Positions 4,541-24,830 of a DNA stretch of 24,830 nucleotides are shown here, piece by piece. A program made the position numbers and the translations under genes. The DNA is from a virus. Below the pieces are notes generated by a model, which saw nothing but the letters and a program-made list of their open reading frames with translations, ran no database searches and was not told the origin of the DNA. Positions within the stretch are counted from its first letter, which is position 1. Every line of letters starts with the position of its first letter. The stretch covers positions 1 to 24,830 of IMG/VR virus record IMGVR_UViG_3300020438_003088. The stretch is one strand, 5' to 3'.

Positions 4541-5341
4541 ACGCCAAGCAGTACCGTTACGCATTTCTTCCATAGAAAAATTATTATAAGCAAGTGAACT
4601 AAACAGAGACATTCGATCTCCGTATACAGGTGTTTCAATTTTAGTCAAATCACTTTCTGATATAGGTGCCGCTCCGCACACATCTTGTTCACAAAACACC
4701 GGAACACCATTAGTGAAACTTTCAATCATTGTGTTACTGTTGTATGTTACACAGGCAAAATATTCATTCCAATCTATAGGTCCAGCACTTTTATTTGTTG
4801 GTATATCCATTTTAATCGTTGCTCCTACATGGTCTTTTGTAATGCCTGGATTGTATGGTTTGTCTCTAATAACCAGTTCTCTATCCGTGTTTTCACGCAG
4901 TATTTTAACAGTATTTTCTAGCCAGTGTGTAGCACCAAAGAAGTCTGCAATGGCGTTTGTAGGGGGCAGTATGAGGATCTTAGACCCCTTTTTATGCCAT
5001 GGTTTGATGTTTTGTTTAAAGTATTGCTCATATCGGTCGTTTGGTCTTTTGAACAATTTGGTTTGACAATGTGCATTTTTTGTTATTCTTAACCAATGAG
5101 GCTTGTCATGAGCATTGGTAAAATAACCATGATCCATGAAGTAAAAATCTTTATTTTCTTTTTCGCACCATTTGTATACCTCACCTGATCCTGCAAGTAT
5201 TCCATACATTATTAAAGTTTCGTTTGGTAACTCATTTAATTCTCTCCAATGAAACATCTTAAATGATCCCGGGGTACCTTGCACAAAAGCATCAACATAT
5301 CTTTGAGTTCTTGGTTTAGTTGTGTGTATACCTGCTATCAT
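4520..5341 (-). CDS. Capsule-type glycosyltransferase-like protein, paralog A
   Basis: A 273-residue protein, one of four paralogs in the window. Shared marks: LVIRDKP (residues 156-162; other copies IRPHP or IRVKP), NSNTMIE (201-207), GVPVFC (212-217), then a conserved segment with an SDLTKIETP-like stretch and a tail with SLAYNNFSMEEMRNGTAW. The RPHP-like and serine/glutamate motifs resemble the nucleotide-sugar-binding half of capsule polysaccharide transferases of the KpsC/KpsS type. It is closest to paralog B, sharing YF, HW and a KN-H-KL segment in the N-terminal half. Last gene of the minus-strand operon, its start overlapping the upstream gene's stop as ATGA. Confidence 0.65.
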   Translation of the reverse strand: MIAGIHTTKPRTQRYVDAFVQGTPGSFKMFHWRELNELPNETLIMYGILAGSGEVYKWCEKENKDFYFMDHGYFTNAHDKPHWLRITKNAHCQTKLFKRPNDRYEQYFKQNIKPWHKKGSKILILPPTNAIADFFGATHWLENTVKILRENTDRELVIRDKPYNPGITKDHVGATIKMDIPTNKSAGPIDWNEYFACVTYNSNTMIESFTNGVPVFCEQDVCGAAPISESDLTKIETPVYGDRMSLFSSLAYNNFSMEEMRNGTAWRLLSDLE

Positions 5342-6057
5342 TTATATTCCTTAATGAATGTTTTAAGTACATCAACATCTGCATTAAGATGTCTTTCTTG
5401 TATTTTGCTCCATACATAATCATCTCTAAAATTAATATCTAAATGTTTCCTGACTTGTTTTCCTGTATCATCAAATACCTTTTTTGCTTTGATTGTAACG
5501 TTTGGGAAAAATAAACATCTGTTAAGTTTCCTGGAAACTTTTTGTGTATATGTATCTACGTACCAATGCCAAAAGAAAGGAGGTACAAAATATCCTAATG
5601 TGTCTATCCAATTTTTGTGTACTAAAAAATGTGGAGAAGAAAAAGGAATATCTCCTATTAGTGTTGGCTTTGTTGCTTGTAATAATTTTTTAGGTTTATT
5701 TTTTTCTTTTCCGTCATATGGAATAGCCATTAAAATTTTATCTGGATAATCATTAAATCCGTCAGTCATAATCTTATCCCAGTGTTGGGTTTTAAATTGT
5801 ATATCGTCGCCTGCTAAAAATACATAATCAAATTTAGCCTTCTCTGCCATCAAGTTCCAACTGTAACAAGTAGATCTATTAGGACCTACTGTGTAGTGTT
5901 TTTTATCAATGGTGTCTTTATATTCTTGTAACGTAGGGTCGTCGTCATTGAGATAAATTAAAAATTCTATATCTCCTGCGGCGGTATCATACGCAGTATC
6001 TATCATTCTTTTTGCTAGTTCAGGTCTGCCTCGCGATGGACAACTGATAGAAATCAT
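5338..6057 (-). CDS. Glycosyltransferase-like protein (GT2-type GT-A fold)
   Basis: A 239-residue protein starting MISISCPSRGRPELAKRM, the usual opening of GT2-like transferases, followed by FLIYLNDDDP (residues 32-41) and VFLAGDDIQF (79-88) that can supply the acidic metal and donor-binding site. A segment IPFSSPHFLVHKNW and a Trp/His-rich FFWHWYVDTY follow. Similar proteins occur in large phages and act on nucleotide-sugar donors; acceptor unknown. The start overlaps the epimerase stop and the stop overlaps the paralog A start, both as ATGA, so translation is likely coupled along the operon. Confidence 0.65.
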   Translation of the reverse strand: MISISCPSRGRPELAKRMIDTAYDTAAGDIEFLIYLNDDDPTLQEYKDTIDKKHYTVGPNRSTCYSWNLMAEKAKFDYVFLAGDDIQFKTQHWDKIMTDGFNDYPDKILMAIPYDGKEKNKPKKLLQATKPTLIGDIPFSSPHFLVHKNWIDTLGYFVPPFFWHWYVDTYTQKVSRKLNRCLFFPNVTIKAKKVFDDTGKQVRKHLDINFRDDYVWSKIQERHLNADVDVLKTFIKEYK

Positions 6058-7061
6058 ATTAATTTATTCTTCCAAGTATCTGGAGTGTGTTCATTAATAA
6101 TTTCTAAAGGTAAATGATACTGAAACTTTTTTGTTCCACGTAATCTAATATAATCTGCTGTCTTCTTAACTGACTGTCGCATATTAGTTGCTGTACTGTA
6201 ACCTAATAAATCTCTTGCCTTGTCAGATGAACACGTTGCTAGTTTTACTTCTTTAGGTCTGTCTTTATGATGTATTGGATCTAAATTTATTCCAGTTTCG
6301 TTTGCACAGGCTTCTGCTAATTCATTAATAGTAACAGGTTCTTCGTCCGGTCCAATATTGATTACTTCACCAACAACATTATCCTGAAATGCAAGTGCGT
6401 TTAAGCAATATAGACAATCGTCAATATAACTGAAGCATCTTTGTTGTTTGCCATCACCATATATAATAGGTTGTTTGCCTTGTAACATTCTGTTCAACAT
6501 GATAGACATAACGTTTCTAAATGGATCATCATACTTCTGTCTTGGTCCAACAATGTTGTGTGGTACAGCAATAACATACTCAACTCCGTGTGTTTCGCAT
6601 AAATTTCTCAATACATCCTCGCCGGCCTTTTTTGCGATACCGTATGGATCCTGGGGACGACATTCGTAAGTTTCTTTGTACGGTACTTCATCATGATGAC
6701 CGTATCTTGCCATGCTTGAACAATATACAATACGTTTTACTTTGTTCCTTATGGCCGCTGTAATAGTTGTAACTGACGCTTCAAATATATTTCTTGTAAC
6801 CAGCACAGGAGAAAATACTGACAGTCCTTCGTATGCCGTTGCGGCAGTGTGGTATACAATATCACATCCTTCCATTGCTTTAGTTAGATTTTCTAAATCA
6901 GTGCAATCTACTTGATGGAACTCTACATCTTGTGGCACATTATCTGTATAGCCACCGATCATATTATCATTACCAGCAACTGTGTGCCCTTGAGATATCA
7001 TTAGGTCTGCTAGGTGCGAACCTAAAAATCCTGCCACTCCTGTTATAAAAACTTTAGCCAT
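6054..7061 (-). CDS. NAD-dependent sugar-nucleotide epimerase/dehydratase (extended SDR)
   Basis: A 335-residue extended short-chain dehydrogenase. The Rossmann motif is GVAGFLG (residues 8-14), the active-site Ser is in VYCSSMARYG (about 115-116), and the catalytic YxxxK is Tyr140/Lys144 (DPYGIAKKAGED). Text such as YGDGKQQRCFSYIDD and NIGPDEEPVTI is typical of UDP-glucose 4-epimerase and dTDP/GDP-sugar dehydratase relatives. It should convert one nucleotide sugar into another, supplying a donor for the neighbouring transferases. The exact substrate cannot be assigned. It lies nine bases after the FkbM gene and overlaps the next gene by four bases. Confidence 0.9.
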   Translation of the reverse strand: MAKVFITGVAGFLGSHLADLMISQGHTVAGNDNMIGGYTDNVPQDVEFHQVDCTDLENLTKAMEGCDIVYHTAATAYEGLSVFSPVLVTRNIFEASVTTITAAIRNKVKRIVYCSSMARYGHHDEVPYKETYECRPQDPYGIAKKAGEDVLRNLCETHGVEYVIAVPHNIVGPRQKYDDPFRNVMSIMLNRMLQGKQPIIYGDGKQQRCFSYIDDCLYCLNALAFQDNVVGEVINIGPDEEPVTINELAEACANETGINLDPIHHKDRPKEVKLATCSSDKARDLLGYSTATNMRQSVKKTADYIRLRGTKKFQYHLPLEIINEHTPDTWKNKLI

Positions 7062-7070
7062 TTTTAATAA

Positions 7071-7700
7071 TTATCGGCAATATACCTTGTCAGGCCAAAT
7101 GTTGATTATCTCATAAAAGCCTATTTCTTTTAGGTAACCTTCTATTTGAGTATTGCTTGATCCATATTTTTTTGTGTTGTTGTTAAGTTCGATCATTAGT
7201 AATTGTGTATTTTGTAATGTTTTTTCTGCACCATGTAACACTTTCATTTCGTATCCTTCAACATCAATTTTAATTAAGTCAACATCTGTCCATCCAAAAG
7301 AATCTATTGTTCTAATTGGAATTTTACCTTGACTTTCTTCGATCCTTAGTGCCTGTGTAAAATCATCTTTAGTCATGCTGAGAAATCCTTCCTTATCACC
7401 TAAAGCAAAAACCATAGGATTAATATTAGGATATCTACCTGCATTCCTTTCTAAACACTTGAAGTTAGTACTGTTAGGTTCAAATGCTTTAATACTACCT
7501 GCAAATTCTGACATTTCAGATGCCCATGTTCCACACCATGCACCGACATCAATTACTGTTCTAAATCTTTTTTGTTGAGACGTACACCATTCTTTAAACT
7601 TTAGCAAACATTTATTCTGTGTAAATGGTTTTCCCGACTTCCAATCTTCTATATGGATGTCATTATCTGGCACCCAAAAATCATTAACTTTTACTATCAT
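7071..7700 (-). CDS. FkbM-family methyltransferase
   Basis: A 209-residue SAM-dependent methyltransferase. Motif I is VIDVGAWCGTWA (residues 49-60), motif II AFEPN (72-76), and the family-typical DLIKIDVEGYEMKVLHGA spans about 141-158. FkbM enzymes O-methylate sugars and polyketides and are often found in polysaccharide clusters. Here it probably caps or modifies a sugar of the glycan made by neighbouring genes. It overlaps the start-proximal paralog B by 17 bases, with an AAGAG-like ribosome site in that overlap. The epimerase follows closely. Confidence 0.9.
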   Translation of the reverse strand: MIVKVNDFWVPDNDIHIEDWKSGKPFTQNKCLLKFKEWCTSQQKRFRTVIDVGAWCGTWASEMSEFAGSIKAFEPNSTNFKCLERNAGRYPNINPMVFALGDKEGFLSMTKDDFTQALRIEESQGKIPIRTIDSFGWTDVDLIKIDVEGYEMKVLHGAEKTLQNTQLLMIELNNNTKKYGSSNTQIEGYLKEIGFYEIINIWPDKVYCR

Positions 7701-8502
7701 AGTACTCTTTTATAATATTAACAGCAGTTCCGTTTGCAATTTCTTCTGGTGTAAATTGCTGATATGCTAATGAACATAACCACTGGTATGGGTCAGTAAA
7801 ATTAGGACTTTCTATTTTACTTAAATCTGTAGATGCAACAGGCCTTGCAAAACTTTTCTCATGACAAAAAACAGGAACTCCGTTGCATATTGATTCTATT
7901 GCACTAATAGAACACGAAGTAACACAGGCCCATGCATCCTCTAGATCTTTTTCTAATGAGACTGTTGCTTCACTAGGTCCGGAGGTTCCTCTACCACGTG
8001 GCTTTACTCTTATTTTAATTGGACGGTCTGTGTGCTTTTTAATTTGTGCTATGGTATCATCTAGCCATGTTGTTTGTTTAAGATACATATGAATACCTGC
8101 AGAACTAGGACATACTAGAATATATTTTCCTGATCTTTTTGGTGGTTTAACTTTAATTTTAAACGAATCAAATCTTGCCGAATCAACACTTGTAAGTAAT
8201 TTTGCATGAATGCTATTTTTACACATACGCCACCAATGATTGTCTGGCTTTAAGTTTTTATTGTCAAATCTTCCAAAATAAGGAGTGTCAGTAAACCAGT
8301 AATTTAGTTTTTTATGTTCTATCTTATGTACCAACTGGAGATTATTATTAACAAATCCCCAAAACATACTGTTATCAAGTGGATCTGTTGCTTTTGAATT
8401 ATCTAATGTTTGGTAAGCAGTAGGCCAAGATTTCATTACACCGCCAAAAACTTCCCAGGCTTTGCTTTCAATATTTTCTAAAGGTGCATAAATTGTTAGC
8501 AT
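7684..8502 (-). CDS. Capsule-type glycosyltransferase-like protein, paralog B
   Basis: A 272-residue paralog and the first gene of the five-gene minus-strand operon. Shared family marks are KHTDRPIKIRVKPRGRG, CSISAIESICNGVPVFCHE, STDLSKIESP and SLAYQQFTPEEIANGTA. The N-terminal half shares with paralog A the pattern YWFTD-x-x-YF and HWWRMCKN. The function inferred is transfer of a sugar from a nucleotide-sugar donor. The ATG at 8502 lies only six bases after a perfect TATAAT on the minus strand, so the message may be leaderless. Confidence 0.65.
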   Translation of the reverse strand: MLTIYAPLENIESKAWEVFGGVMKSWPTAYQTLDNSKATDPLDNSMFWGFVNNNLQLVHKIEHKKLNYWFTDTPYFGRFDNKNLKPDNHWWRMCKNSIHAKLLTSVDSARFDSFKIKVKPPKRSGKYILVCPSSAGIHMYLKQTTWLDDTIAQIKKHTDRPIKIRVKPRGRGTSGPSEATVSLEKDLEDAWACVTSCSISAIESICNGVPVFCHEKSFARPVASTDLSKIESPNFTDPYQWLCSLAYQQFTPEEIANGTAVNIIKEYYDSKS

Positions 8503-8528
8503 AGTTATATTATAATTAAATAATTGTC
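8503..8528. promoter_or_regulatory. Compact divergent promoter with TATAAT on both strands
   Basis: Only 26 bases, all but a few A or T, separate two divergent genes. TATAAT occurs on the plus strand at 8511-8516 and, overlapping it, on the minus strand at 8514-8509. The plus-strand box is 12 bases before ATG 8529. The minus-strand box is six bases before the ATG at 8502. No strong -35 is seen on either strand (minus: TTGCAT with a 17-base gap). The -35 elements would have to lie inside the opposite coding sequence. Confidence 0.45.
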
Positions 8529-9575
8529 ATGATGCAAGTTAAAAATATTCAAAGTATTCAGTATTTCCATGACAAGTTTGATGTTATTGATTATCCCCAA
8601 GAGTATTTAAACTGGAAAACTAACCCAACGTATCTTGCTGAATTTGAAGATTGTATGGTGCATACTTGGCCTTTCTTAATAACCAAAATGGGTGGACTAA
8701 TATCAGAACACGTTTGGCCTTTAACATGGAAACAAAAGAAAAAATTAGGACCTAGATCAGGAATATATCCTATGTGGGGAGAAAATGTTGACATTAATAT
8801 TCCTCCGCCATCGAGAGAATTTACCGATACACAAAAGTATGTTTGGTTGCCTATAGACGTTTCGTCAGGAAACAATCCATGGCATATATGGATCGATGTA
8901 ATTGCAAAAATGCGATTGATTGAAAAGAGATTAAACAAACCATTTAAAGAGTTTGTGTATGTTATGCCTCACAAAAGTGAATATATGGAAAAAGTTATTA
9001 GTGATATTGTGCCAGAAATAAAACTTATAGTAATGCCAAAAAATTCTACATGGAAGTTTAAACACATATACGTACCTACTATGTGTAATCATGACGACGG
9101 TGTTGTACTACCTCAATCTGTTAACTGGCTTCGTTCTAGATTTTTACACAAACACGTAGAAAAACCGTATAGAAAACTTTTTATTGACAGGGGTGTTGGC
9201 TCTAGAAAGTTGGCAAATAAAGATGATGTGTTTGCAATTTTAAAAGGATATGAAGTATTAAGATTAGAAGAAATGCCTATACTAGAACAAATGAAAGCAT
9301 TTGCAGAAGCAACACATATAGTTGCTACGCACGGAGCAGGACTTGTAAATCTTTTATGGTGCTTACCTGAAACTCGAGTTATTGAAATTGTACATAAGCA
9401 CACTGCTAAAAAAGTATATCCAAATCTTTCTCATTTATTAGGATTAAATCACAAAGTTGTAATGGGAGAACCTGTGCCTATTGCAAAAACAACAAAAGAA
9501 AAACAATATAAAAGATTAAATGATTATAATGATATTAAATTAGATTCTAGTATTTTAGCACGGAATCTGGAATAA
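8529..9575 (+). CDS. GT61-like glycosyltransferase (DUF563)
   Basis: A 348-residue protein. The hallmark is EATHIVATHGAGLVNLLW (about residues 260-277), the THGAGL-N motif of family GT61, preceded by KLFIDRGVGSRKLAN and LEEMPILEQMKAF, all typical of this family (xylosyl- and N-acetylglucosaminyltransferases). It should add a sugar to an unknown acceptor. ATG occurs at both 8529 and 8532; the first is used here. It stands alone on the plus strand between minus-strand genes, and its last 52 bases overlap the convergent paralog C gene. Confidence 0.8.
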   Translation: MMQVKNIQSIQYFHDKFDVIDYPQEYLNWKTNPTYLAEFEDCMVHTWPFLITKMGGLISEHVWPLTWKQKKKLGPRSGIYPMWGENVDINIPPPSREFTDTQKYVWLPIDVSSGNNPWHIWIDVIAKMRLIEKRLNKPFKEFVYVMPHKSEYMEKVISDIVPEIKLIVMPKNSTWKFKHIYVPTMCNHDDGVVLPQSVNWLRSRFLHKHVEKPYRKLFIDRGVGSRKLANKDDVFAILKGYEVLRLEEMPILEQMKAFAEATHIVATHGAGLVNLLWCLPETRVIEIVHKHTAKKVYPNLSHLLGLNHKVVMGEPVPIAKTTKEKQYKRLNDYNDIKLDSSILARNLE

Positions 9576-10534
9576 ACTTTTCCAGATCTTATTTCATCAA
9601 TCGACCACATCATATAACCTAAGTCATTTAGCCATTGTGTTCTATCTGGGTATTTTGGATTTTCGATATCTTCTAAATTAGTGTTTGCTACTGGCCAACA
9701 AATTGCAAGATCTGAGGTAACAAAGGTAGGGACTCCACGAATACAAGAGTCGACGCTGGCAGTAGAATTGTGAGTAATAACAGCATGACAATTATTTAAT
9801 GCTTCTTGAAAGTTGAATCTATAGTACTTTTTCTCATCTCCGGAGAAATGTTTTTGTCCAATTATTAATTCGCAATCTGGTGGAAACTCGTTTCTCCGTT
9901 CTTCCATTGATGCAACATTGTTAGGGTGTGGGCGTATTAAAAATTTTCTTTTAGTTAATGGTCTCAATTTTTTGTATACATCATTAAACCATTCTATGGG
10001 ATCCAACTCGTTCATACTCCAGTTGTCTTTTGGTTGTAATACAAATAATATTGGAGCATCTGGATTAGGTTTTTGCCATTCGTAGTTTCCAATATTAAAC
10101 AGTTGTTGCATTTCTTTCCATCTGTCGTCTGGTGAATTATCTGCTAAAAAATTTCCATTACGCATCGGAGTCCAAAGTGCAACTCTATATCTGTGATTTG
10201 GAACACCTGATGTATTACCAAAACTTGAACACAGTCCTCCGTCAAATGTTACTACAACACTACCTTTCTTCTTTGCATTCTCAACAAGCATATACCTTCT
10301 ACCTTTAGTGTGATGTTGTTGTCTATCTCCACCATATCCGAACATAACCCCAATCGGTGCTGTAATATTCATTTCGCCGTCTTGTGTTGGTCCTGTCATA
10401 TGCTCGTTAACAATTTCAACTTTATCGCCGGATGCTCTTACACCTTCTGCAAAATCGTATAATAGTTTGTAAGAATCGCCCCGTCTACGATCTTTTACTG
10501 TTCTTCTAAAAATTTGTACTGTTAGATTTTTCAT
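9524..10534 (-). CDS. Capsule-type glycosyltransferase-like protein, paralog C
   Basis: The longest paralog, 336 residues. Family marks are FLIRPHPNN, VITHNSTASVDSCIRGVPTFV, NTNLEDIENPKYPDRTQW and LGYMMWSIDEIRSGKVYSRF. The RPHP motif is canonical here, as in KpsC/KpsS-like and related GT-B transferases. About 60 extra residues at the N-terminus relative to A and B contain a Gly-rich stretch (GVMFGYGGDRQQHH). The last residues extend past the homologous end of the family and run into the 3' end of the GT61-like gene on the other strand (52-base overlap). It is a monocistronic unit. Confidence 0.65.
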   Translation of the reverse strand: MKNLTVQIFRRTVKDRRRGDSYKLLYDFAEGVRASGDKVEIVNEHMTGPTQDGEMNITAPIGVMFGYGGDRQQHHTKGRRYMLVENAKKKGSVVVTFDGGLCSSFGNTSGVPNHRYRVALWTPMRNGNFLADNSPDDRWKEMQQLFNIGNYEWQKPNPDAPILFVLQPKDNWSMNELDPIEWFNDVYKKLRPLTKRKFLIRPHPNNVASMEERRNEFPPDCELIIGQKHFSGDEKKYYRFNFQEALNNCHAVITHNSTASVDSCIRGVPTFVTSDLAICWPVANTNLEDIENPKYPDRTQWLNDLGYMMWSIDEIRSGKVYSRFRAKILESNLISL

Positions 10535-11489: not shown

Positions 11490-12367
11490 TGAGAATTGCA
11501 GTGTACCCAGACAATTCTAGTTTAAACGGTAGGCCTGTTTTTGCGGCACTTATCGAACATTTAAAAGCAAAAGGTGAAAAAGTTTTTATAAATGAAGATA
11601 AAAATTGCGACGTCGCTATCATTTGGTCTGTGCTTTGGCAAGGACGAATGGAAAAGAATAAAAAAATATGGGAACAGTTTAGAGGTACAGGAAGACCTGT
11701 TGTAGTTTTAGAAGTTGGTGGGTTACGAAGAAACTCATCTTTTAAAATGGGTATAAACGGAATCAACAGAGAGGCAGATTTTGCTAATCAAACATACGAT
11801 GACAAACGTTGGCCACTGTTTAATCATCAGTTTAGAGAATGGAAACAAACAGGTAATATAATTGTGATCTGTGGACAACATCACAACAGTCACCAATGGA
11901 GAGAGAATCCAGGCTTAAAATCTTACTTTAAACATTGTATCGAAGAAATACGTAGGTACACAGACAAACCTATCATTATTAGACCACATCCGCGAAATAT
12001 TGTACATAATTTTCCGGAGCACAAATACAAACACGTTAGAGTAAATTTACCTAAAAGAGATTGGGGAACTTACGACGATACCGATTTTAAAAAAATACTA
12101 AATTCAACGTGGGCCGTTGTAAATCATAGTTCTAATCCTGCCATGGAGGCAGTAATACACGGTATACCTGTTTTTGTATCTGAAAAAAGTTTATGTCATG
12201 ATGTTGGTAATACAGACTTATCTGATATCATGCACCCGGCAATGCCGGCTAGACAAAACTGGGCAAATCAGTTAGCATATACAGAATGGTTCACAGAAGA
12301 ATTTAGAGAAGGAAAACCATGGGCAAGAATAAGAGAAAGACTATTAGAAAAGTACATAAAAAAATAA
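11489..12367 (+). CDS. Capsule-type glycosyltransferase-like protein, paralog D
   Basis: A 292-residue paralog. Family marks are RYTDKPIIIRPHPRN, VVNHSSNPAMEAVIHGIPVFV, NTDLSDIMHPAMPARQNW and LAYTEWFTEEFREGKPW. The RPHP motif and length match paralog C better than A or B. The opening MRIAVYPDNSSLNGRPVFAA is followed by a Rossmann-like N-terminal domain. It is the only one of the four paralogs on the plus strand. Its 3' end overlaps the next gene by 49 bases. Confidence 0.65.
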   Translation: MRIAVYPDNSSLNGRPVFAALIEHLKAKGEKVFINEDKNCDVAIIWSVLWQGRMEKNKKIWEQFRGTGRPVVVLEVGGLRRNSSFKMGINGINREADFANQTYDDKRWPLFNHQFREWKQTGNIIVICGQHHNSHQWRENPGLKSYFKHCIEEIRRYTDKPIIIRPHPRNIVHNFPEHKYKHVRVNLPKRDWGTYDDTDFKKILNSTWAVVNHSSNPAMEAVIHGIPVFVSEKSLCHDVGNTDLSDIMHPAMPARQNWANQLAYTEWFTEEFREGKPWARIRERLLEKYIKK

Positions 12368-12747
12368 TAAAACCTATACACGTTAAGATTGATAAATTAA
12401 TCACATTAGCAGAATTAGGTCTAGGAGTAGAGCGACCGTTGAACAAAGAAAAACGAGATTGGATTAACAAACTAACAAAACAATCAGAACCGTTGAATCC
12501 AATATTGGTTGCACCGATCAAGGATACAGGATACTATGTTTTGTGTGATGGGTGGCACAGAGTACAGGCTACTAAAAAAATGAAAGAAGACAGCATTGAT
12601 GCTCTTATTATTCCAATTAAATCTGGATTAGGATTAGCAAAAGTAAATAAAATTTTGAGAGACATTGACCAAGAACAAAAATACGGCCTAGGAGTTAGTG
12701 GGTTAATAAACAACTGGGCATTTGATAAACTAATGGAGATAGAATGA
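12319..12747 (+). CDS. ParB/sulfiredoxin-like domain protein
   Basis: A 142-residue protein with a very basic N-terminus (MGKNKRKTIRKVHKKIIK). A ParB-like domain follows: NPILVAPIKDTGYYVLCDGWHRVQATKK (about residues 60-87), whose DGWHR (77-81) is the ParB box II pattern used for nucleotide (CTP/ATP) binding or phosphotransfer. Stand-alone ParB-like folds occur in phages as nucleases, kinases or regulators. It is odd in a glycan operon, so it may act on a small molecule or a protein serine. GAAGGA precedes ATG 12319, which lies 49 bases inside the previous gene. Its stop overlaps the next start (ATGA). Confidence 0.65.
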   Translation: MGKNKRKTIRKVHKKIIKPIHVKIDKLITLAELGLGVERPLNKEKRDWINKLTKQSEPLNPILVAPIKDTGYYVLCDGWHRVQATKKMKEDSIDALIIPIKSGLGLAKVNKILRDIDQEQKYGLGVSGLINNWAFDKLMEIE

Positions 12748-13945: not shown

Positions 13946-15286
13946 ATGTTATCAACTCAGAAAATGCCCCAAACCGTTCAAGAATGCATAGAAATATTAG
14001 CATATAACGAACATTTCTGGGAAGGATTCCATGCTCATGAAAAAGATCGCAAAACAATAGGCTCACTTGCTGACACTCAATATCCATGGACAGAAAAACA
14101 AGCCATGTTAGGTTTGAGGATAATCAAGCGATATAAAACACTATTTGAAAAGTATAAAATTAGCATAGACGACTTATGTAATGACCCTCAATGGAGAGAT
14201 CCTTTTAGAAAAATTGATTATGCCAAAGTTTTAGAAAAATTTACAAACGAAAATAACGAGGATCAGTTAGAAATAAGATTTCCTTATTCAGAAAAAATGA
14301 TTGGATTGATACGTTGCCTTAAGGATAAACGAGGATTACCTGCAGGATATTTTAAGTACGACGGCGAAACAAAGAAATGGACTGCGAAATATTCAGATGT
14401 TGTTGCTTATTACATGACATTGATTGGAACAAGATACGATTTTGAATTTGCAGATAAAACAATGTTTGACGACTTTTATGAGATACGAGAAGAGAAAAGA
14501 AAGTTTAAACACATAAAAGTTAACGTAGGCAAAAAAAATCTTGGAGTAGACAATGCTCCTGAATCTTTAGCAGAATACTGGAAAAGCAATATTGCAACAA
14601 AACCGTTACTGCAACAAGTTGATAGTTTAAAAACATTTGGATTGTCTATTCCGATCGGCACTGATAAAGTAACATCACTTGCTGAAAAAATTGCAGTTAC
14701 TACTACAAAAGAAGTTCATGTAAGTCCAGAAAAATGGAATAAAACTCAAGTACTATCTGCTTGTGAAGAATTAAATTTGTTTCCTATAATTTGTCCAGTA
14801 TCGGATCTTTCTTCTGCAGAAGATATACAAGAAATGACTAATTGGTTTTTTGCATTTGCAGAACGAGAAATTACAGATAAACAAGTTGCTTGGGGTTTTG
14901 ATCTTGCAAAGTATCCTATCTCAGATCCACTAGACGATAATCTCTCTAACGATAACATGGATAGTTTTGATGACCCGTATTCACATCTGTACACAAGAGA
15001 GATGACTAAAACACAAAAGAAAAATGTATATAATGAATTTAAGATATTAAACAAAAAGTCAGAAAAGAATAAGTTTATTGGTAATGATACTAAAATTATT
15101 TTTATTAGAAACAAAATACCCCGAACACTACTAAAGTCTGGAGTAAGGCCTACAACAACTTTAAGTTTTATTAGTAATTCATATGCACCTTATGGAGAAA
15201 CTGTAAGGAAATGGCTTGATAATATTCAAAAAAGATTGTATTATAGTACATATACAAATTATGGAAGTGCTATAGACAAAATATGA
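13946..15286 (+). CDS. Unknown protein with helicase-like features, coupled to UvsW
   Basis: A 446-residue protein I cannot assign. Around residues 110-160 there is LEIRFPYSEKMIGLIRCLK then GYFKYDGETKKWTAKYSD, a pattern seen at the front of HARP-like and other SF2 helicases, where an FPY stretch precedes a K-W substrate strand. Near the C-terminus IIFIRNKIPRTLLKSGVRP also looks helicase-like. No Walker A or DEAD box is present, so it would be inactive as an ATPase. An ATG at 13964 is an alternative start. Its stop overlaps the UvsW start as ATGA, so the two are probably made together and may act together. Confidence 0.7.
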   Translation: MLSTQKMPQTVQECIEILAYNEHFWEGFHAHEKDRKTIGSLADTQYPWTEKQAMLGLRIIKRYKTLFEKYKISIDDLCNDPQWRDPFRKIDYAKVLEKFTNENNEDQLEIRFPYSEKMIGLIRCLKDKRGLPAGYFKYDGETKKWTAKYSDVVAYYMTLIGTRYDFEFADKTMFDDFYEIREEKRKFKHIKVNVGKKNLGVDNAPESLAEYWKSNIATKPLLQQVDSLKTFGLSIPIGTDKVTSLAEKIAVTTTKEVHVSPEKWNKTQVLSACEELNLFPIICPVSDLSSAEDIQEMTNWFFAFAEREITDKQVAWGFDLAKYPISDPLDDNLSNDNMDSFDDPYSHLYTREMTKTQKKNVYNEFKILNKKSEKNKFIGNDTKIIFIRNKIPRTLLKSGVRPTTTLSFISNSYAPYGETVRKWLDNIQKRLYYSTYTNYGSAIDKI

Positions 15287-16731
15287 GTTCATGTAAACTG
15301 GTAATAAAAGACGAAGTAAATGTCAAATTTGAAAATTTAGATTTGAAATGGAGACAACGTCTGCACCAAAAATTTAAATATCAGATACCTTATGCTTTTC
15401 ATCTACCTGCTGTTAAGTTAGGAAGATGGGATGGAAAAATTGCATTTTTTGGATTGGGCGGTACAACCTATCTTAGTCTGGTTGAACAAATATTACCCAT
15501 ACTAGAAGACGGTGGTGTGTATGTTGATTTTAAAGATGAACGAGAACAACACGACTTTGAATTTAAATCTATAGACAAAAATTATCTATCTAATATTAAT
15601 TGGCCTACAGGTCACCCTCAAGCAGGACAACCAATAGAATTACGAGACTATCAAGTGGACACTATCAATAAGTTTATTGAAAATCCACAATGCATACAAG
15701 AGATCGCCACTGGTGCAGGAAAGACTATAATCACTGCGGCGCTGTGCCAGTTGGTCGAACCTTATGGACGTACACTAACAATAGTTCCAAACAAAAGTCT
15801 AGTGACACAAACAGAAGAAGACTTTGTTGCTTGTAATCTAGACACAGGCGTATATTATGGTGACCGTAAAGAAGTTGGTAGATACAACACAATAGCAACG
15901 TGGCAAAGTTTAAATGTATTAGAGAAGAAGGCAAAAAACGAACACAGCACCGAGTTCAAAGAATTTGTTGAGGGCATTAACACAATTATAATTGACGAAG
16001 TACACATGGCAAAAGCAGATGTACTCAAAAGACTACTGACAGGACCATTTGCACATTGTGGCATACGTTGGGGACTAACAGGTACAGTTCCAAAAGCAGA
16101 GTATGAGTTCATGGGTATCAAGGTATCTATTGGTGATGTTATTAACAAGTTACCTGCTAAAGAATTGCAGGACAAAGGTGTACTTGCAAACTGTCATGTG
16201 AACGTGTTGCAAACGCAAGACTTAAAAGAATTTAAAAACTATCCAGAAGAATTAAAATGGCTAACTACGGACAGCGATAGAATGACATGGGTCGCTCAAA
16301 CAATAAAAGATATTTCGTCATCAGGCAACACATTAATATTAGTTGATAGAATATCTGCAGGAGAAATATTACAAAAGAAAATAAAAGATTCTGTGTTCAT
16401 ATCGGGATCAACTAAAAATACGGAAAGGAAAGAGCACTACGATGAAGTGTCTACAGCAGAAAGTAAAATCATTATTGCAACATACGGAGTCGCCTCTGTT
16501 GGAATTAATATTCCTAGGATATTCAATCTTGTTCTTATTGAACCTGGCAAATCTTTTGTAAGAGTTATACAGAGTATCGGACGAGGTATTCGTAAAGCAG
16601 AAGACAAAGATAAAGTACAAATATGGGATATTACCAGTTCTTGTAAATTTGCAAAAAGACACCTAACACAAAGAAAAAAGTTTTACAAAGAGGCCAATTA
16701 TCCGTATAATATAGAAAAGATAGATATATGA
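15283..16731 (+). CDS. uvsW: UvsW-type DNA/RNA helicase (SF2)
   Basis: A 482-residue SF2 helicase. Motifs in order: RDYQ (residues 121-124), Walker A ATGAGKT (142-148), DEVH (238-241), GLTGTVP (264-270), an ATYGVASVGINIP stretch, and the arginine-finger motif QSIGRGIRK near the end. Length and an N-terminal domain before the motor match T4 UvsW, which remodels R-loops and stalled forks and switches origin to recombination-dependent replication. It starts inside the previous stop and its stop overlaps the next start, both as ATGA. Confidence 0.92.
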   Translation: MSSCKLVIKDEVNVKFENLDLKWRQRLHQKFKYQIPYAFHLPAVKLGRWDGKIAFFGLGGTTYLSLVEQILPILEDGGVYVDFKDEREQHDFEFKSIDKNYLSNINWPTGHPQAGQPIELRDYQVDTINKFIENPQCIQEIATGAGKTIITAALCQLVEPYGRTLTIVPNKSLVTQTEEDFVACNLDTGVYYGDRKEVGRYNTIATWQSLNVLEKKAKNEHSTEFKEFVEGINTIIIDEVHMAKADVLKRLLTGPFAHCGIRWGLTGTVPKAEYEFMGIKVSIGDVINKLPAKELQDKGVLANCHVNVLQTQDLKEFKNYPEELKWLTTDSDRMTWVAQTIKDISSSGNTLILVDRISAGEILQKKIKDSVFISGSTKNTERKEHYDEVSTAESKIIIATYGVASVGINIPRIFNLVLIEPGKSFVRVIQSIGRGIRKAEDKDKVQIWDITSSCKFAKRHLTQRKKFYKEANYPYNIEKIDI

Positions 16732-18588: not shown

Positions 18589-18814
18589 GGTTAAAGTTGA
18601 AATAGCAGAAGAATTAGATTTTGATATAGGAGATTGCTGTATTATTATTAAACCAGATGGCTCTATTGGAAAATTAATATTGCCTGAAGTAAACAGTGAT
18701 ACTGTGCAATCTAAAGGTTACAAAAAAATGCTTGAGGTAGTAGACTTACTGAAACCTGGTAGCGGAAAAGCAATTGACGAATATGAACATAAACAAAAAA
18801 GGAATTTACACTAA
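18581..18814 (+). CDS. Small conserved protein with TTG start
   Basis: A 77-residue protein read from TTG 18581. AAAGGAG at 18568-18574 sits six bases upstream and the frame then starts MSKVKVEIAEELDFDIGDCC. An in-frame TTG at 18551 has no such site, and there is no upstream ATG in a reasonable place. Content: an acidic start, IIIKPDGSIGKLILPE, then a helix KGYKKMLEVVDLLKP. Function unknown. It overlaps the zinc-finger gene's stop by eight bases, and its last base is the A of the next ATG. Confidence 0.65.
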   Translation: MSKVKVEIAEELDFDIGDCCIIIKPDGSIGKLILPEVNSDTVQSKGYKKMLEVVDLLKPGSGKAIDEYEHKQKRNLH

Positions 18815-19428
18815 TGCCTGACGTAGATATTGATTTTTACGATAGACAAGGAGTACTTGATTTATTCAAGCATACCCCGGCAACTATTGTTAAAAACGAC
18901 ACACACGAAAGACACAAAACTGGAATATATTTCCATGACATTCCTGTTAATCCAAACACAAAAGGTTCAAGTATAGATTATAAAAAAGCAGAAGGCAGAG
19001 GCTATTTTAAAATTGACGTGTTAAATGTTAATATCTATAAAGATATAAAATCTGAAAGAGAACTTGTTGAGTTAATGATTGAAGAACCCGATTGGGATAT
19101 ATTAAAGAACGTAACTGTTGTTGATAATTTATTTCATTTGAATGGACATTTTAATATTGTAAACAAATTAGAACCTAAAAATGTAGAACAACTTGCGGCT
19201 GTATTAGCAATTATACGTCCAGCCAAAAGACATTTGATGCACAAATACTGGAAAGATATTTTAAACGAAGTATGGACCAAACCTGCTGACGGATCATACT
19301 TTTTTAAAAAATCCCATGCTATTGCATATGCTCATGCTATTGTAGTACAGATGAATCTAATGCGTAGGAATAAATATAGTTTTGATGCACAATCAGAAAA
19401 AGAAAAAAACAATCCGCAAAAAACTTAA
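18814..19428 (+). CDS. Miniature DnaE-like (C-family DNA polymerase-like) protein
   Basis: A 204-residue protein that looks like a stripped-down DNA polymerase III alpha core. PDVDIDF at residues 2-8 matches the PDxDxDF motif holding two catalytic Asp. GRGYFKIDVLNV (61-72, Asp68) matches the third catalytic Asp motif (G-V-K-F-D-x-L). LEPKNVEQLAAVLAIIRPAKR (119-139) resembles the ALYRPGP segment, and FFKKSHAIAYAH (163-174) the FNKSH-x-x-AYA motif. No PHP, OB or clamp-binding domain is present, and DnaE itself is about 1,100 residues. I recall relatives in cyanophages annotated as hypothetical. Activity is unknown; a regulator or remnant is as likely as an enzyme. Confidence 0.7.
   Translation: MPDVDIDFYDRQGVLDLFKHTPATIVKNDTHERHKTGIYFHDIPVNPNTKGSSIDYKKAEGRGYFKIDVLNVNIYKDIKSERELVELMIEEPDWDILKNVTVVDNLFHLNGHFNIVNKLEPKNVEQLAAVLAIIRPAKRHLMHKYWKDILNEVWTKPADGSYFFKKSHAIAYAHAIVVQMNLMRRNKYSFDAQSEKEKNNPQKT
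19369..19376 (+). promoter_or_regulatory. Weak late-promoter-like box (AATAAATA) inside the DnaE-like gene
   Basis: AATAAATA at 19369-19376, a T4-late-type -10, lies nine bases before ATG 19385 of the small basic gene. In AT-rich DNA this could be chance. Confidence 0.2.
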
Positions 19429-19543
19429 CAAAAAAACTTCTTCTAAAAAATCAGATCCGTATGGCTATAACCCGGATAGTCCTTTAACACAGCACTATCT
19501 TACGACAGGTGCTATACTTCCTGAAAAGAAGAAGACTAGGTAG
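19385..19543 (+). CDS. Small basic protein, 52 residues
   Basis: An ATG at 19385 opens a 52-codon frame ending in TAG at 19541-19543. The first half is almost all lysine, serine and threonine (KKKKTIRKK, then KKTSSKKS). The second half is DPYGYNPDSPLTQHY followed by LTTGAILPEKKKTR. The PYGYNPDSP-TQHYL sentence is not low-complexity and resembles small proteins seen at this place in marine T4-like phages, as I recall. It overlaps the DnaE-like gene by 44 bases and the convergent gene by eight. Function unknown; the basic front suggests nucleic-acid binding. Confidence 0.6.
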   Translation: MHNQKKKKTIRKKLNKKTSSKKSDPYGYNPDSPLTQHYLTTGAILPEKKKTR

Positions 19544-19910
19544 GTTTACGCATTAACTGAATAGTTCTTCGCTTTATTCGTTTCTTCGCAATATCGGCCA
19601 AACGTACTGTTGGTCCGTGTACTATCTTAACATCTTTACCACTTAATGTAGTCAATGTATATTTGAAATGCTTAAAGTCTTTCTTAAGAAATATATTAAT
19701 TGGTAATTTTCTGTTAGACTCCCACCACCAAGTTTCCCCTAGAGTTAAGAATAATTCTCTTTCTCTCGCTGTTGCTACCTTATCGTAGTCATACACACTT
19801 ATAACATTGGTGTCTTGGTTCTGTACAATACCTATATACTCAAAATCACTCTTTCGTACTAGAGTTAAGAATGGGTATTTCTTTCCTAATTTTTCAAATA
19901 TCTCGTTCAT
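19536..19910 (-). CDS. Conserved phage protein of unknown function
   Basis: A 124-residue protein on the minus strand, the only minus gene between 13.9 kb and the end. Its text is KKYPFLTLVRKSDFEYIGIVQNQD, then VISVYDYDKV, LGETWWWESNRKLPINIFLKK, and a basic end AKKRIKRRTIQLMRKP. The WWWESNRKxPINIFL and RIKRRTIQL sentences are ones I recall in unnamed cyanophage proteins. No catalytic motif is seen. Basic C-terminal residues could bind nucleic acid. Its orientation against all neighbours suggests a different expression class. Confidence 0.7.
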   Translation of the reverse strand: MNEIFEKLGKKYPFLTLVRKSDFEYIGIVQNQDTNVISVYDYDKVATARERELFLTLGETWWWESNRKLPINIFLKKDFKHFKYTLTTLSGKDVKIVHGPTVRLADIAKKRIKRRTIQLMRKPT

Positions 19911-20736: not shown

Positions 20737-21756
20737 ATGAACCTGATCCAGTCGACTATTCTGACATCCTTACCTGCGGGTAAGAAAAAAACTCCATCTG
20801 GATGGATTGCCTTTAATGGACCTTGTTGTGTACACAACGGAGAAAGTCAAGATAGAAAAAAACGTGGCGGTATAATGAATAGTCCTGACGGAACTGTATC
20901 ATATCATTGTTTCAACTGTGGATTTAAAACTTCTTATATCCCTGGTAGAAAAATTTCAGTAAAAACTAAAAAATGGATGTCGTGGCTAGGCATTGACGAT
21001 AACACAATTAAAAAACTTGTCATAGAAGCGATGCGTTTGGAAGAAAGCGATAATGTAATTGAGAAGAAAAAGTTTGTTTCGTTTGTTAAAAAAACATTGC
21101 CAAAGAATGCACACAACCTTGCAGTATGGTTAGAAAAATATTTAAAGAAAGATTTAACAGACAAACAACACAATTATATTGATTCATTATTAAACTATCT
21201 AAAAGCAAGAGGTATCGGTCCCGAATGGTACGACTTTATGTACTCTCCAGACATGACTTTTGATTTTAATAGAAGATTAATAATACCGTTCTACTGGAAA
21301 GGCGATGTAGTAGGATACACTGGAAGATTGTTTGACAACTCTGACAAAGTAAAATATTATACAGAAGTACAACCAGGTTATGTGTTTAATTTAGATGCAC
21401 AAGACTGGAGCAGGAAATTTGTTATTGTGACAGAAGGACCATTCGATGCTATATCCGTTTCTGGTGTGAGCATACTAGGATCAGAGATAAATGATACACA
21501 AAGAGAGTTGATAGATGCCCTAGGTCGTAAGGTAATTGTAGTACCTGATAGAGATGCACCGGGAGAAAAATTAATTAACCAAGCAATGGATTTTCGTTGG
21601 AGTGTTGCATTTCCGGAATGGGAAGAAGGAGTTGACGATGTTGCCGATGCTGTGTTAAAATATGGAAGATTGTTTACAATGCAATCAATATTAAAATCAA
21701 CAGAGTCTAATAGACTTAAAATAGATTTAAAGAGAAAGATGTATGGCAGATTATAA
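20737..21756 (+). CDS. 61: DNA primase, gp61-like
   Basis: A 339-residue T7/T4-type primase. An N-terminal zinc site is formed by CC-x-H (Cys30/Cys31, His33) and CFNC (Cys58, Cys61), which reads the template site. The TOPRIM core has VIVTEGPFDAIS (EGPFDA, residues 233-238) and VVPDRDAPG (DRDAPG, 271-276) with acidic metal ligands. Length agrees with T4 gp61 (342). It makes RNA primers and works with gp41, whose gene overlaps its last 14 bases. Ten bases separate it from the virion protein gene, and no strong ribosome site is seen before ATG 20737. Confidence 0.93.
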   Translation: MNLIQSTILTSLPAGKKKTPSGWIAFNGPCCVHNGESQDRKKRGGIMNSPDGTVSYHCFNCGFKTSYIPGRKISVKTKKWMSWLGIDDNTIKKLVIEAMRLEESDNVIEKKKFVSFVKKTLPKNAHNLAVWLEKYLKKDLTDKQHNYIDSLLNYLKARGIGPEWYDFMYSPDMTFDFNRRLIIPFYWKGDVVGYTGRLFDNSDKVKYYTEVQPGYVFNLDAQDWSRKFVIVTEGPFDAISVSGVSILGSEINDTQRELIDALGRKVIVVPDRDAPGEKLINQAMDFRWSVAFPEWEEGVDDVADAVLKYGRLFTMQSILKSTESNRLKIDLKRKMYGRL

Positions 21757-23206
21757 AGAACAATATTCGCAGGCTAAGAATTATTCGTTTGATGTTCAGA
21801 AATTGTATTTAGAAATGTTTTTAGCAGATGCTGAATCTTTTGCTAGAGCAAGTAATATATTTTTACCACAACATTTTGAAAGAAAATTACAACCTGTTGC
21901 AAAGTTTATTAAAGACTATGTTGAAGAATACAAAGTGATGCCTGAAGTTGATCAGGTTAATGCTAGTCAAGATATTAAACTAAAAGGGGCAAAAGATCTA
22001 GACCCATCTCATTTCAACTGGTTGTTAGATGAGTTTGAAACATTTTCCAGACACAAGGCACTTGAAAGTGCAATACTATCATCTGCAGACTTATTAGAAA
22101 AAGGAGATTATGCTCCTGTAGAAGACATGGTCAAAGAAGCAGTGAATGTAGGACTAACACGTGATCTAGGTACAGACTACTTTGAAGATCCAAAAGGTAG
22201 ACTAGAACTTTTAAAAAGTTCAAATGGACAAGTCAGCACAGGGTGGACAAATCTCGATAAGAAACTGTTCGGTGGATTTAACCGAGGAGAACTAAACATT
22301 TTTGCAGGTGGATCAGGCGCAGGTAAAAGTTTATTCTTACAGAATCTTGCAGTTAATTGGGCACTCGCTGGCTTGAACACAGTTTACATATCTTTTGAAT
22401 TATCTGAAACACTTGCGGCAATGAGAATAGATGCAATGACAACTAACATTCCAACAAAGAATGTAATGAAGTCCATGGACGATGTTGAAATGAAAGTTAA
22501 GATGCTAAAGAAAAAATCTGGTAACTTACAATTAAAATACTTGCCAAGTGGTAGTACAATACTAGATATAAAAACTTATATCAAAGAATTAGAATTAAAA
22601 TCGAAAAAGAAAGTTGATTGTATACTAATTGATTATCTTGATCTAATGATGCCTAAGAGTAAAAGAATATCACCAGCAGACTTGTTTATTAAAGACAAGT
22701 ATGTGTCAGAAGAATTAAGAAATTTTGCAGTTGAATCACAAATGCTACTTGCAACAGCGTCACAATTGAACAGAGCAAGTGTTGAAGAAATAGAATTTGA
22801 TCATTCTCATATCTCAGGTGGCTTATCTAAAATACAGACAGCAGATAATGTAATAGGTATATTCACAAGTAGAGCCATGAGAGAACGTGGCAGATATCAA
22901 ATACAGTTCATGAAAACTAGATCTAGTTCTGGTGTAGGACAAAAAGTTGATTTAGAATTTGACATAGATACGTTAAGAATCAGAAGTTTAGATGAGGAAG
23001 AACAAAGCAGTTATGTTACAAAACAAACTGGACAAGTGTTTGATCAACTTAAACAAAAGTCCAAAGTAACACCTGCAACTCCAAAAGATGCTAGGACAGA
23101 TATAGATCCTAGACAAGGCCAAGACGCTGGCAAAGTAAAAGCAGAAGTTCAAGGTACAAAACTAAGACAACTGCTTAACGAACTCCATTCAGACGAAGAG
23201 CAATAA
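21743..23206 (+). CDS. 41: Replicative DNA helicase, gp41-like (DnaB family)
   Basis: A 487-residue DnaB/RecA-fold hexameric helicase. An N-terminal domain of about 160 residues (LEMFLADAESFARASNIFLPQHF) precedes STGWTNLDKKLFGGFNRGEL, Walker A GGSGAGKS (189-196), FELSETLAAMRIDAM, and Walker B VDCILIDYLDLM (291-302). QLNRASVEEIEF and DNVIGIFTSRAMRERG follow. The last 50 residues are polar and basic, a flexible tail. Length is close to T4 gp41 (475). Together with gp61 it forms the primosome; the start overlaps the primase gene by 14 bases. Confidence 0.95.
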   Translation: MADYKEQYSQAKNYSFDVQKLYLEMFLADAESFARASNIFLPQHFERKLQPVAKFIKDYVEEYKVMPEVDQVNASQDIKLKGAKDLDPSHFNWLLDEFETFSRHKALESAILSSADLLEKGDYAPVEDMVKEAVNVGLTRDLGTDYFEDPKGRLELLKSSNGQVSTGWTNLDKKLFGGFNRGELNIFAGGSGAGKSLFLQNLAVNWALAGLNTVYISFELSETLAAMRIDAMTTNIPTKNVMKSMDDVEMKVKMLKKKSGNLQLKYLPSGSTILDIKTYIKELELKSKKKVDCILIDYLDLMMPKSKRISPADLFIKDKYVSEELRNFAVESQMLLATASQLNRASVEEIEFDHSHISGGLSKIQTADNVIGIFTSRAMRERGRYQIQFMKTRSSSGVGQKVDLEFDIDTLRIRSLDEEEQSSYVTKQTGQVFDQLKQKSKVTPATPKDARTDIDPRQGQDAGKVKAEVQGTKLRQLLNELHSDEEQ

Positions 23207-23413: not shown

Positions 23414-24388
23414 ATGAGTAACAATTATAACGAACAGCCTCCAAAAATTACACGCATACAATGGTTATTTGCAAACGTCTGTAACTATGATTGTTCTTAT
23501 TGTCCAAAAATTTTACACTCTAGTCGAGTGAAGTTTCCTGATGAGAAGATACTAACTGATGCTATACAGTACACAGTTTCATCTTTGAGAATGCTTGATA
23601 GAGAACCTGCGTTTGAATTTGTAGGCGGAGAACCCACACTCAATCCTGGATTGTTGGCCATGTGTCAACGAATGGGCAATCAACAACTCAAAAACAAATT
23701 GACCACTAACGGATCTGCAGATATAAAATGGTATGAAGAACACTATCATTATTTTTCTACAATTGAAATCAGTTATCATATCGGGTGGGCAGACCAACAG
23801 CACATCGAAGAATTAGTTGACTTCTTGGTGGCCCAGGAAGACTACGACGGCAATAAAAAAGTACAAGTGAGAATAATGATTCATTGTACCAACGAAGATG
23901 ATAAATGGGCAAATGCTATCAGTGTGTATCAACAATTCAAAGCAAAAGGGTATCCTGTGGAACTTAAACTTTTGTATTCAAACTTTACTAAAGGATTTCA
24001 ATATCTTCCTTATAAAACATATCAACTGGATTATTATTTCAAAGAGCGAGGAGAAGAATGGGATCCGGAACAGACAATGTACTTGGGAAATTTAAAATAC
24101 GACGGAGTTTCGAGAGCCAGACACGACATAACAAAAGAAGATGTAGACAAAATAAACAAAGACAAACCAATAAAACAAAACTGGAACTTCCAGGGTTATA
24201 GATGTAACGCAGGCAAAGATCAGTTCGTGATTGATCAAAAAGGCAAAGTTTGGAGAGGTTGGTGTGGAGAAGACAAAAGTTTAGGAAATGTTTTATACAG
24301 GAATGTTTCTTGGCAGAACGATGCGTGGAAATGCACAAAACCTGTGTGCCGGAATGGCTTTGACCAACTGGCGACCAAGTTTAAATAG
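23414..24388 (+). CDS. Radical SAM enzyme with SPASM-like C-terminal domain
   Basis: A 324-residue protein. The [4Fe-4S]/SAM motif is Cys23-x3-Cys27-x2-Cys30 (VCNYDCSYCPK). FVGGEPTLNPG at 69-79 gives the GGEP motif, and LTTNG follows near 96. Four late cysteines, Cys264 (YRCNAGKDQF), Cys284 (RGWCGED), Cys307 and Cys312 (WKCTKPVCRNG) fit an auxiliary iron-sulfur site of the SPASM/twitch type, with a SLGNVLY segment between them. Such enzymes modify peptides, proteins or sugars. It is not a QueE-type protein, which is shorter and lacks the late cysteines. No clear ribosome site precedes ATG 23414. Confidence 0.85.
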   Translation: MSNNYNEQPPKITRIQWLFANVCNYDCSYCPKILHSSRVKFPDEKILTDAIQYTVSSLRMLDREPAFEFVGGEPTLNPGLLAMCQRMGNQQLKNKLTTNGSADIKWYEEHYHYFSTIEISYHIGWADQQHIEELVDFLVAQEDYDGNKKVQVRIMIHCTNEDDKWANAISVYQQFKAKGYPVELKLLYSNFTKGFQYLPYKTYQLDYYFKERGEEWDPEQTMYLGNLKYDGVSRARHDITKEDVDKINKDKPIKQNWNFQGYRCNAGKDQFVIDQKGKVWRGWCGEDKSLGNVLYRNVSWQNDAWKCTKPVCRNGFDQLATKFK

Positions 24389-24423: not shown

Positions 24424-24830
24424 ATGGCAAAAGAAACAGTAACAGAAGTAATTCACTTAACAGACAATTTATTTTCATTCAAGACTACCAGAGATCCTGG
24501 ATTTAGGTTTGAAGCAGGACAGTTCACAATGATTGGCCTTGACGGGACACCTAAACGTGCATACTCCATGGTGAGTGGACCTTACGATGAATACTTGGAG
24601 TTTTTATCTATTGTAGTCGAAGACGGACCATTGACATCAGAACTGGTCAAAATTAAAGTTGGCGATACAGTCAACGTTGGAAAAAAAGCAGTAGGTACAT
24701 TGATAACCGATTCATTAACAAAGGGAAAAAATCTTTGGTTGATTGGAACAGGAACCGGTATTGCGCCTTTTGTTAGCATCTGCCGTGATCCAAAAACATA
24801 TGTTAAGTTTGAAAACGTGATTGTGTGTCA
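24424..24830 (+). CDS. Ferredoxin/flavodoxin-NADP+ reductase, N-terminal part (cut by window end)
   Basis: An open frame from ATG 24424 to the window end, 135 codons. It begins MAKETVTEVIHLTDNLFSF, like bacterial Fpr. The FAD-binding marks are FRFEAGQFTMIGL and RAYSMVSGPYDEYLEF (R-x-Y-S), then GPLTSELVKIKVGD, and the NADP-binding start is LWLIGTGTGIAPFVSICRD. These agree with bacterial-type Fpr, which passes electrons between NADPH and ferredoxin or flavodoxin. The domain order is intact as far as seen; the C-terminal half lies outside the window. The promoter upstream is perfect, with no room for a ribosome site. Fpr-flavodoxin is a known reductant of radical SAM enzymes, so the neighbour is suggestive. 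Confidence 0.9.
   Translation, partial: MAKETVTEVIHLTDNLFSFKTTRDPGFRFEAGQFTMIGLDGTPKRAYSMVSGPYDEYLEFLSIVVEDGPLTSELVKIKVGDTVNVGKKAVGTLITDSLTKGKNLWLIGTGTGIAPFVSICRDPKTYVKFENVIVC

Follow-up and report, generated by a model that had tools for sequence, protein, structure and literature searches.

Results

Gene content of the locus

The window (the whole stretch of viral DNA analysed here, 24 830 nt in length) contains a 204-aa ORF located among replication genes, which our study identified as the C-terminal half (C-half) of a predicted split minimal DNA polymerase of the C family. Translation confirmed the ORF of the original prediction, and the features relevant to it, with the evidence for each, are as follows:

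15283–16731, + strand: UvsW-like helicase, the start of a conserved replication cluster (match in the window; relatives including RaK2, PAC2 and contig G103)
17896–18588, + strand: C2H2 zinc-finger protein, phrog_11058, a conserved neighbour (PHROG match; same place in phage PAC2 and contig G103)
18551–18814, + strand: small ORF, the stop of which runs into the C-half start codon (TAATG), with AGGA at 18800–18803 (sequence)
18814–19428, + strand: CDS of the C-half, phrog_11778, 204 aa with an ATG start (translation, PHROG match, conservation, structure)
18817–18837, + strand: PDVDIDF, residues 2–8, with catalytic D5 and D7 equivalent to D401 and D403 of E. coli DnaE (PDFDVDF) (residue mapping, conservation)
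19006–19026, + strand: FKIDVLN, residues 65–71, with catalytic D68 equivalent to E. coli D555 and K66 to K553 (VKFDFLG) (hhalign, mapping, conservation)
19216–19227, + strand: R135-P-A-K138, within IIRPAK (133–138), occupying the position that the FRPGP loop has in DnaE (LFRPGP) (hhalign, mapping, conservation)
19303–19329, + strand: FKKSHAIAY, within FFKKSHAIAYA (163–173), equivalent to DnaE GFNKSHSAAYA / YGFNKSHSAAYA (mapping, profile, conservation)
19536–19910, − strand: phrog_11637, a convergent conserved neighbour (PHROG match; same arrangement in Phosso, Atu_ph07, RaK2 and PAC2)
20737–21756, + strand: gp61-like primase (match in the window; relatives)
21743–23206, + strand: gp41-like DnaB-type replicative helicase (match in the window; relatives including contig G103)

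The conserved order runs from the UvsW helicase through phrog_11279, phrog_11758, phrog_11058, the small ORF, the C-half, phrog_11637 and a virion-like protein to the primase and the DnaB-type helicase, and in RaK2 a gene for a DnaQ-like exonuclease stands directly before uvsW. The TAATG overlap suggests that the small ORF and the C-half may be translationally coupled. A scan for promoters and terminators around the C-half returned nothing above chance. Surface-sugar genes, most of them reversed (glycosyltransferases, a nucleotide-sugar epimerase and a methyltransferase), form an island at positions 4520–10534, inside the replication and recombination cluster, with SSB, UvsX and UvsY upstream.

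Homology of the C-half to DNA polymerase III alpha

Mapping on E. coli DnaE placed all of the motifs originally claimed (PDVDIDF, the D68 of FKIDVLN, RPxK and KKSHAIAYA) in the DnaE order, and additionally matched RHKTG (C-half residues 33–37) to KHAGG. The PHROGs profile match was to phrog_11778 (‘DNA polymerase’, 197 aa) over residues 3–187 with E=2.1e-64. Alignment of profiles with hhalign placed C-half residues 31–138 onto residues 508–642 of E. coli DnaE (E=1.5e-4). AlphaFold models, built from input alignments that left out rows from annotated records, had a pLDDT of 85.8 for the C-half and 91.2 for the N-terminal half (N-half) described below; the first 11 PDB matches of the C-half model, and the first 17 of the N-half model, were all Pol III alpha/PolC chains. 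The TM-scores of these models were modest (0.3–0.5, the best for the C-half being 0.50), as is to be expected because the models represent halves. The structural comparison called for by the original prediction did not refute it and, with hhalign, confirms homology to the C family. This call needed profiles and models, as Pfam and single-sequence PDB searching were too weak alone: the Pfam finger-domain match of the C-half was partial and below the cut-off (E=0.018), the single-sequence PDB search returned no Pol III alpha match, and HMMER comparison of the C-half profile with DnaE was weak (best E=0.01).

Several parts of DnaE are missing from the C-half. The chain begins at PDVDIDF and does not contain the GRGS nucleotide-binding loop; no counterpart of the finger motif LRRAMGKK (E. 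coli 708–715) was present between IIRPAK (ending at 138) and FFKKSH (starting at 163); and no Pfam match to PHP, clamp-binding or tau-binding domains was obtained in the 204 aa. As it lacks the GRGS part and the DnaE finger segment, the C-half represents half of an active site and not a whole mini-polymerase.

The N-half and the split point

The GRGS part of the palm is borne by the N-half, a separate gene of ~170 aa (phrog_11127). In DnaE, the GRGS loop binds the triphosphate of the incoming nucleotide. With Pfam PF07733, the N-half was detected in Phosso, Atu_ph07, RaK2 and PAC2 as an ORF of its own, 34–223 kb from the C-half, and hhalign placed it onto residues 323–394 of E. coli DnaE (E=4.4e-6). 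It was invisible to the original prediction, since any N-half of this genome would lie outside the window, and what had been described as a miniature polymerase-like protein does not stand alone but is one of two parts of a split enzyme, the C-terminal one.

Judged by sequence, the split point is clean, with the N-half ending where the C-half begins, directly before the PDxDxDF catalytic strand. The C-terminus of the N-half lies one residue past EFL in 118/130, and E. coli DnaE reads FERFLNPERVSM-PDFDVDF at the split. GxGRGS, S152, L155 and H161 of the N-half (Phosso protein numbering) were invariant in 130/130. A search for fusions of the two halves in one ORF yielded no candidate that was retained; in the loci examined, the GS and DxD motifs occurred together only in ORFs of a distinct 562-aa enzyme.

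Distribution and conservation

Relatives of the C-half were detected in 90 phage records by tblastn and are encoded in at least 426 viral contigs in a viral contig scan. Apart from two Alishewanella phages of 141 kb, the isolates among them were all jumbo phages of the Atu_ph07/RaK2/PA5oct kind; unnamed relatives had been suggested in cyanophages, but no cyanophage was among the isolates. In Atu_ph07, the CDS YP_009611739.1 is annotated from an internal codon past PDIDIDF, and the longer frame (L083:7992-8567; NC_042013 58304-58879, − strand) restores the aspartates. Contigs with the C-half gene were also found in a Rickettsiales MAG, MED657 (L374), and a Natrialbaceae MAG (L375), and are probably phage contigs that were binned in.

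Nineteen residues (D3, D5, D7, H34, G37, P44, K66, D68, L70, Y75, P92, W94, A128, R135, P136, K138, H168, Y172 and N181) were invariant in 106/106 distinct full-length C-half relatives. Natural variation at D5, D7 and D68, which had been put forward as grounds for refutation, was seen in 0/106, and the aspartates were unsubstituted in relatives as distant as ~32–36 % identity. Comparison of the window with close marine relatives gave a dN/dS of 0.05–0.10 for the C-half, which is under strong purifying selection. Together with its conservation across phage records and contigs, this upholds the earlier view that the gene is not a relic.

Co-inheritance of the two halves

The N-half was present in 79 of the 80 listed phage records with a C-half (77 by BLAST and 2 more by HMM); the N-half of Slicko01, found by HMM, and that of CM1 had been missed in the BLAST listing. 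The sole exception, PP728206, is an unverified, incomplete record of 109 kb from a genus with genomes of ~346 kb. Conversely, 18 of the 21 contigs of at least 200 kb with an N-half also carried the C-half. It was not detected in contigs G007 (349 kb, L140), G074 (359 kb, L362) and G064 (203 kb, L306), all classed as linear, which represent either incomplete genomes or real loss. A weak C-half ‘match’ in G007 was rejected as a hydrolase-like ORF.

Pairwise distances of the N- and C-halves were correlated across the 28 genomes with both (r=0.78), and none of 5000 permutations reached this value (best 0.44); in the absence of a control gene, the correlation of these sequence distances shows joint inheritance and does not by itself prove contact. 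Both halves, ~11 kb apart, were found in the complete 141-kb genome of Alishewanella phage Slicko01 (L294, L370), and the split enzyme is therefore not confined to genomes >200 kb.

The N-half in marine relatives of the window

No N-half was found in the 24.8-kb window, which is only a fragment of its genome, and none of the contigs in the clade closest to it contained one either. We rejected a missing N-half as a feature of the marine clade, since the contigs in question cover only the part of a genome near the C-half, and a marine N-half is encoded on complementary contigs. Contigs G013 and G014 of the window clade map to ~226–328 kb of contig G103, and the marine N-half contig G092 maps to ~18–150 kb of it, with almost no genes common to G092 and G013/G014. 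G092 and the contigs of the window clade thus look like pieces of a single genome type that complement each other, which suggests that the genome of the window may also encode an N-half. A ParB-like nuclease/partition domain protein of 142 aa at positions 12319–12747 of the window is 64 % identical to the ORF adjoining the N-half in G092 (50911–51294), which again ties the window clade to G092. The joint occurrence of marine N- and C-halves at the level of samples was regarded as habitat evidence only.

Other polymerases of the same phages

A B-family polymerase was encoded by 12/12 relatives tested, and the original notion of a second polymerase-like fold beside a B-family enzyme is borne out in these genomes; none was found in the 24.8-kb fragment that forms the window. 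In many marine contigs, a gene for a single-chain DnaE-like protein of 562 aa was located downstream of the helicase, 3.8–7.6 kb from the C-half. Examples in marine jumbo-type contigs are:

L181:1414-3102 (+ strand): 562-aa DnaE-like protein
L182:1369-3060: 562-aa DnaE-like protein
L249:9100-10782: 562-aa DnaE-like protein

This protein (P0004) has GS, DxD, D, RP and HA motifs of its own and the finger motif YRRAFAKK, without a PHP domain, and its nearest relative in the annotated collection (38 %) belongs to the uncultured 484-kb phage LR756508. An hhalign comparison of the C-half with the 562-aa family was out of register over the first 25 residues and was dropped for those residues. The N-half, the C-half and the 562-aa gene occurred together in contigs G102 (320 kb) and G103 (328 kb), the latter also encoding the B-family polymerase. 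In five contigs (L065:11091-11162, L066, L070, L072 and L074), the 562-aa gene was cut to its last 24 codons, a precise deletion scar flanked by the helicase stop and a new gene, and the C-half was intact, indicating that the 562-aa gene is optional at that place. It was not present downstream of the C-half in the window. A radical SAM protein (23414–24388) and the start of an FAD-binding oxidoreductase (24424–24830) occupy the post-helicase place that it holds in many relatives.

Discussion

Our study suggests that the C-half and the N-half probably constitute a split minimal C-family DNA polymerase that belongs to T4-related jumbo phages; its parts would assemble and work beside a B-family polymerase. 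The break lies directly before the PDxDxDF strand, so joining the halves would rebuild one polymerase-beta-like palm. In the assembled enzyme, the GRGS loop of the N-half would hold the phosphates of the incoming nucleotide, and the C-half, with its three metal-binding aspartates, would bind two metals and the primer end and would also supply an RPxK loop and a KKSHA helix. Such an enzyme would probably be slow and distributive, because it has almost no fingers (E. coli ~650–745 is lost) and no PHP, tau-binding or clamp-binding domains. The gene adjoins those of the primase and helicase, which suggests that its role may most plausibly be primer extension or gap filling beside the primase-helicase, next to the B-family replicase.

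An active two-piece polymerase appears to be the most likely function from these comparisons, although templated synthesis is not assured, since the LRRAMGKK segment is without a counterpart in the C-half. It is conceivable, if unlikely, that the assembled halves are catalytic as a fingerless nucleotidyltransferase, performing terminal or primer-end addition or the modification of nucleotides or proteins. The polymerase-beta-like fold is widely used in other nucleotidyl transfers, and here nothing is lost from the metal-binding residues or the GRGS loop while the finger segment that holds template and nucleotide is gone. However, the equivalents of the DnaE polymerase motifs (H34, K66, RPxK, KKSHA and Y172) are invariant or nearly so, and the gene sits with a primase and a helicase. 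The sensor and regulator roles that had also been proposed are less likely than an active enzyme in two pieces. A catalytically dead module of the replisome, such as a nucleotide sensor or scaffold, would fit the modest size, the absence of the other DnaE domains and the presence of a B-family replicase in any case, yet dead modules usually lose their metal ligands, whereas the three aspartates here are unsubstituted throughout the 106 distinct sequences; we regard this as improbable.

The position of the 562-aa gene a short distance downstream (~4–7 kb), in marine contigs where no N-half was seen, could indicate that the marine C-half partners the 562-aa protein and not an N-half. This is very improbable: the 562-aa protein has a complete set of GS, DxD, D and HA motifs, all three genes occur together in G102 and G103, the five contigs with the 24-codon scar keep the C-half, and the gene is absent downstream in the window. 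We attach negligible probability to a chance resemblance or a host DnaE fragment in decay, for which the short length and the description of the phage CBB N-half as ‘truncated’ (PMC5259590) might speak, given that the gene is kept under strong purifying selection in so many records and contigs.

Should the split polymerase prove active, its two halves would form the smallest C-family polymerase core known so far. They would also provide a natural example of a polymerase palm broken in mid-active-site into two genes, the break point of which could be copied for engineering. Such a core would further reveal which portions of the 1160-aa bacterial replicase its chemistry depends on, and would explain a second polymerase in phages that have a B-family replicase. 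A bolder and rather doubtful extension is that marine jumbo phages of the window kind replicate with three cores, namely the B-family replicase, the single-chain mini-DnaE and the split fingerless C-family enzyme, the last of these being a dedicated primosome polymerase for primer extension or gap filling with the smallest C-family active site known. The question is directly testable, as laboratory E. coli jumbo phages of the 121Q kind carry both halves. Our literature searches found no biochemical test of the split enzyme.

Compared with bacterial DnaE (E. coli; Taq Pol III alpha, 3E0D and 4IQJ), the phage protein has the catalytic aspartates and motifs in the same order and the palm fold in common. 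The bacterial enzyme is a single chain of 1160 aa with PHP, full fingers, clamp-binding and tau-binding domains, whereas the phage pair keeps ~250 homologous residues without the LRRAMGKK segment. The single-chain phage DnaE-like enzymes without PHP (the 562-aa protein, proteins of Streptomyces and Cronobacter phages, and LR756508) are likewise reduced C-family polymerases, but they consist of one chain, keep YRRAFAKK and, in marine phages, are found alongside the split enzyme; the window protein is not of that type. Parts of the split system have been encountered before. CBB_328 (172 aa, ‘DNA polymerase III alpha’) is an N-half by size and annotation (PMC5259590) and gp316 of Atu_ph07 is probably another by annotation (PMC6102473), the separate C-half being recognized in neither case, and PF07733 was present in 51.9 % of the largest group of a marine survey (PMC9123017).

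A Pol III alpha of such small size had been thought undescribed, but the available text of Iyer et al. 2021 (PMC7824862) already predicts a split minimal Pol III alpha in group 2.2 jumbo phages, from comparative genomics without experiments. On that text, the window protein belongs to the same family, with the same two-gene division and a B-family polymerase likewise alongside; it is a new, marine member, and the text reports neither residue conservation across many genomes nor a test of co-inheritance. In summary, our study adds to this system the exact split point, the conservation and co-inheritance of the halves, a non-jumbo carrier of 141 kb and marine relatives with the 562-aa enzyme.
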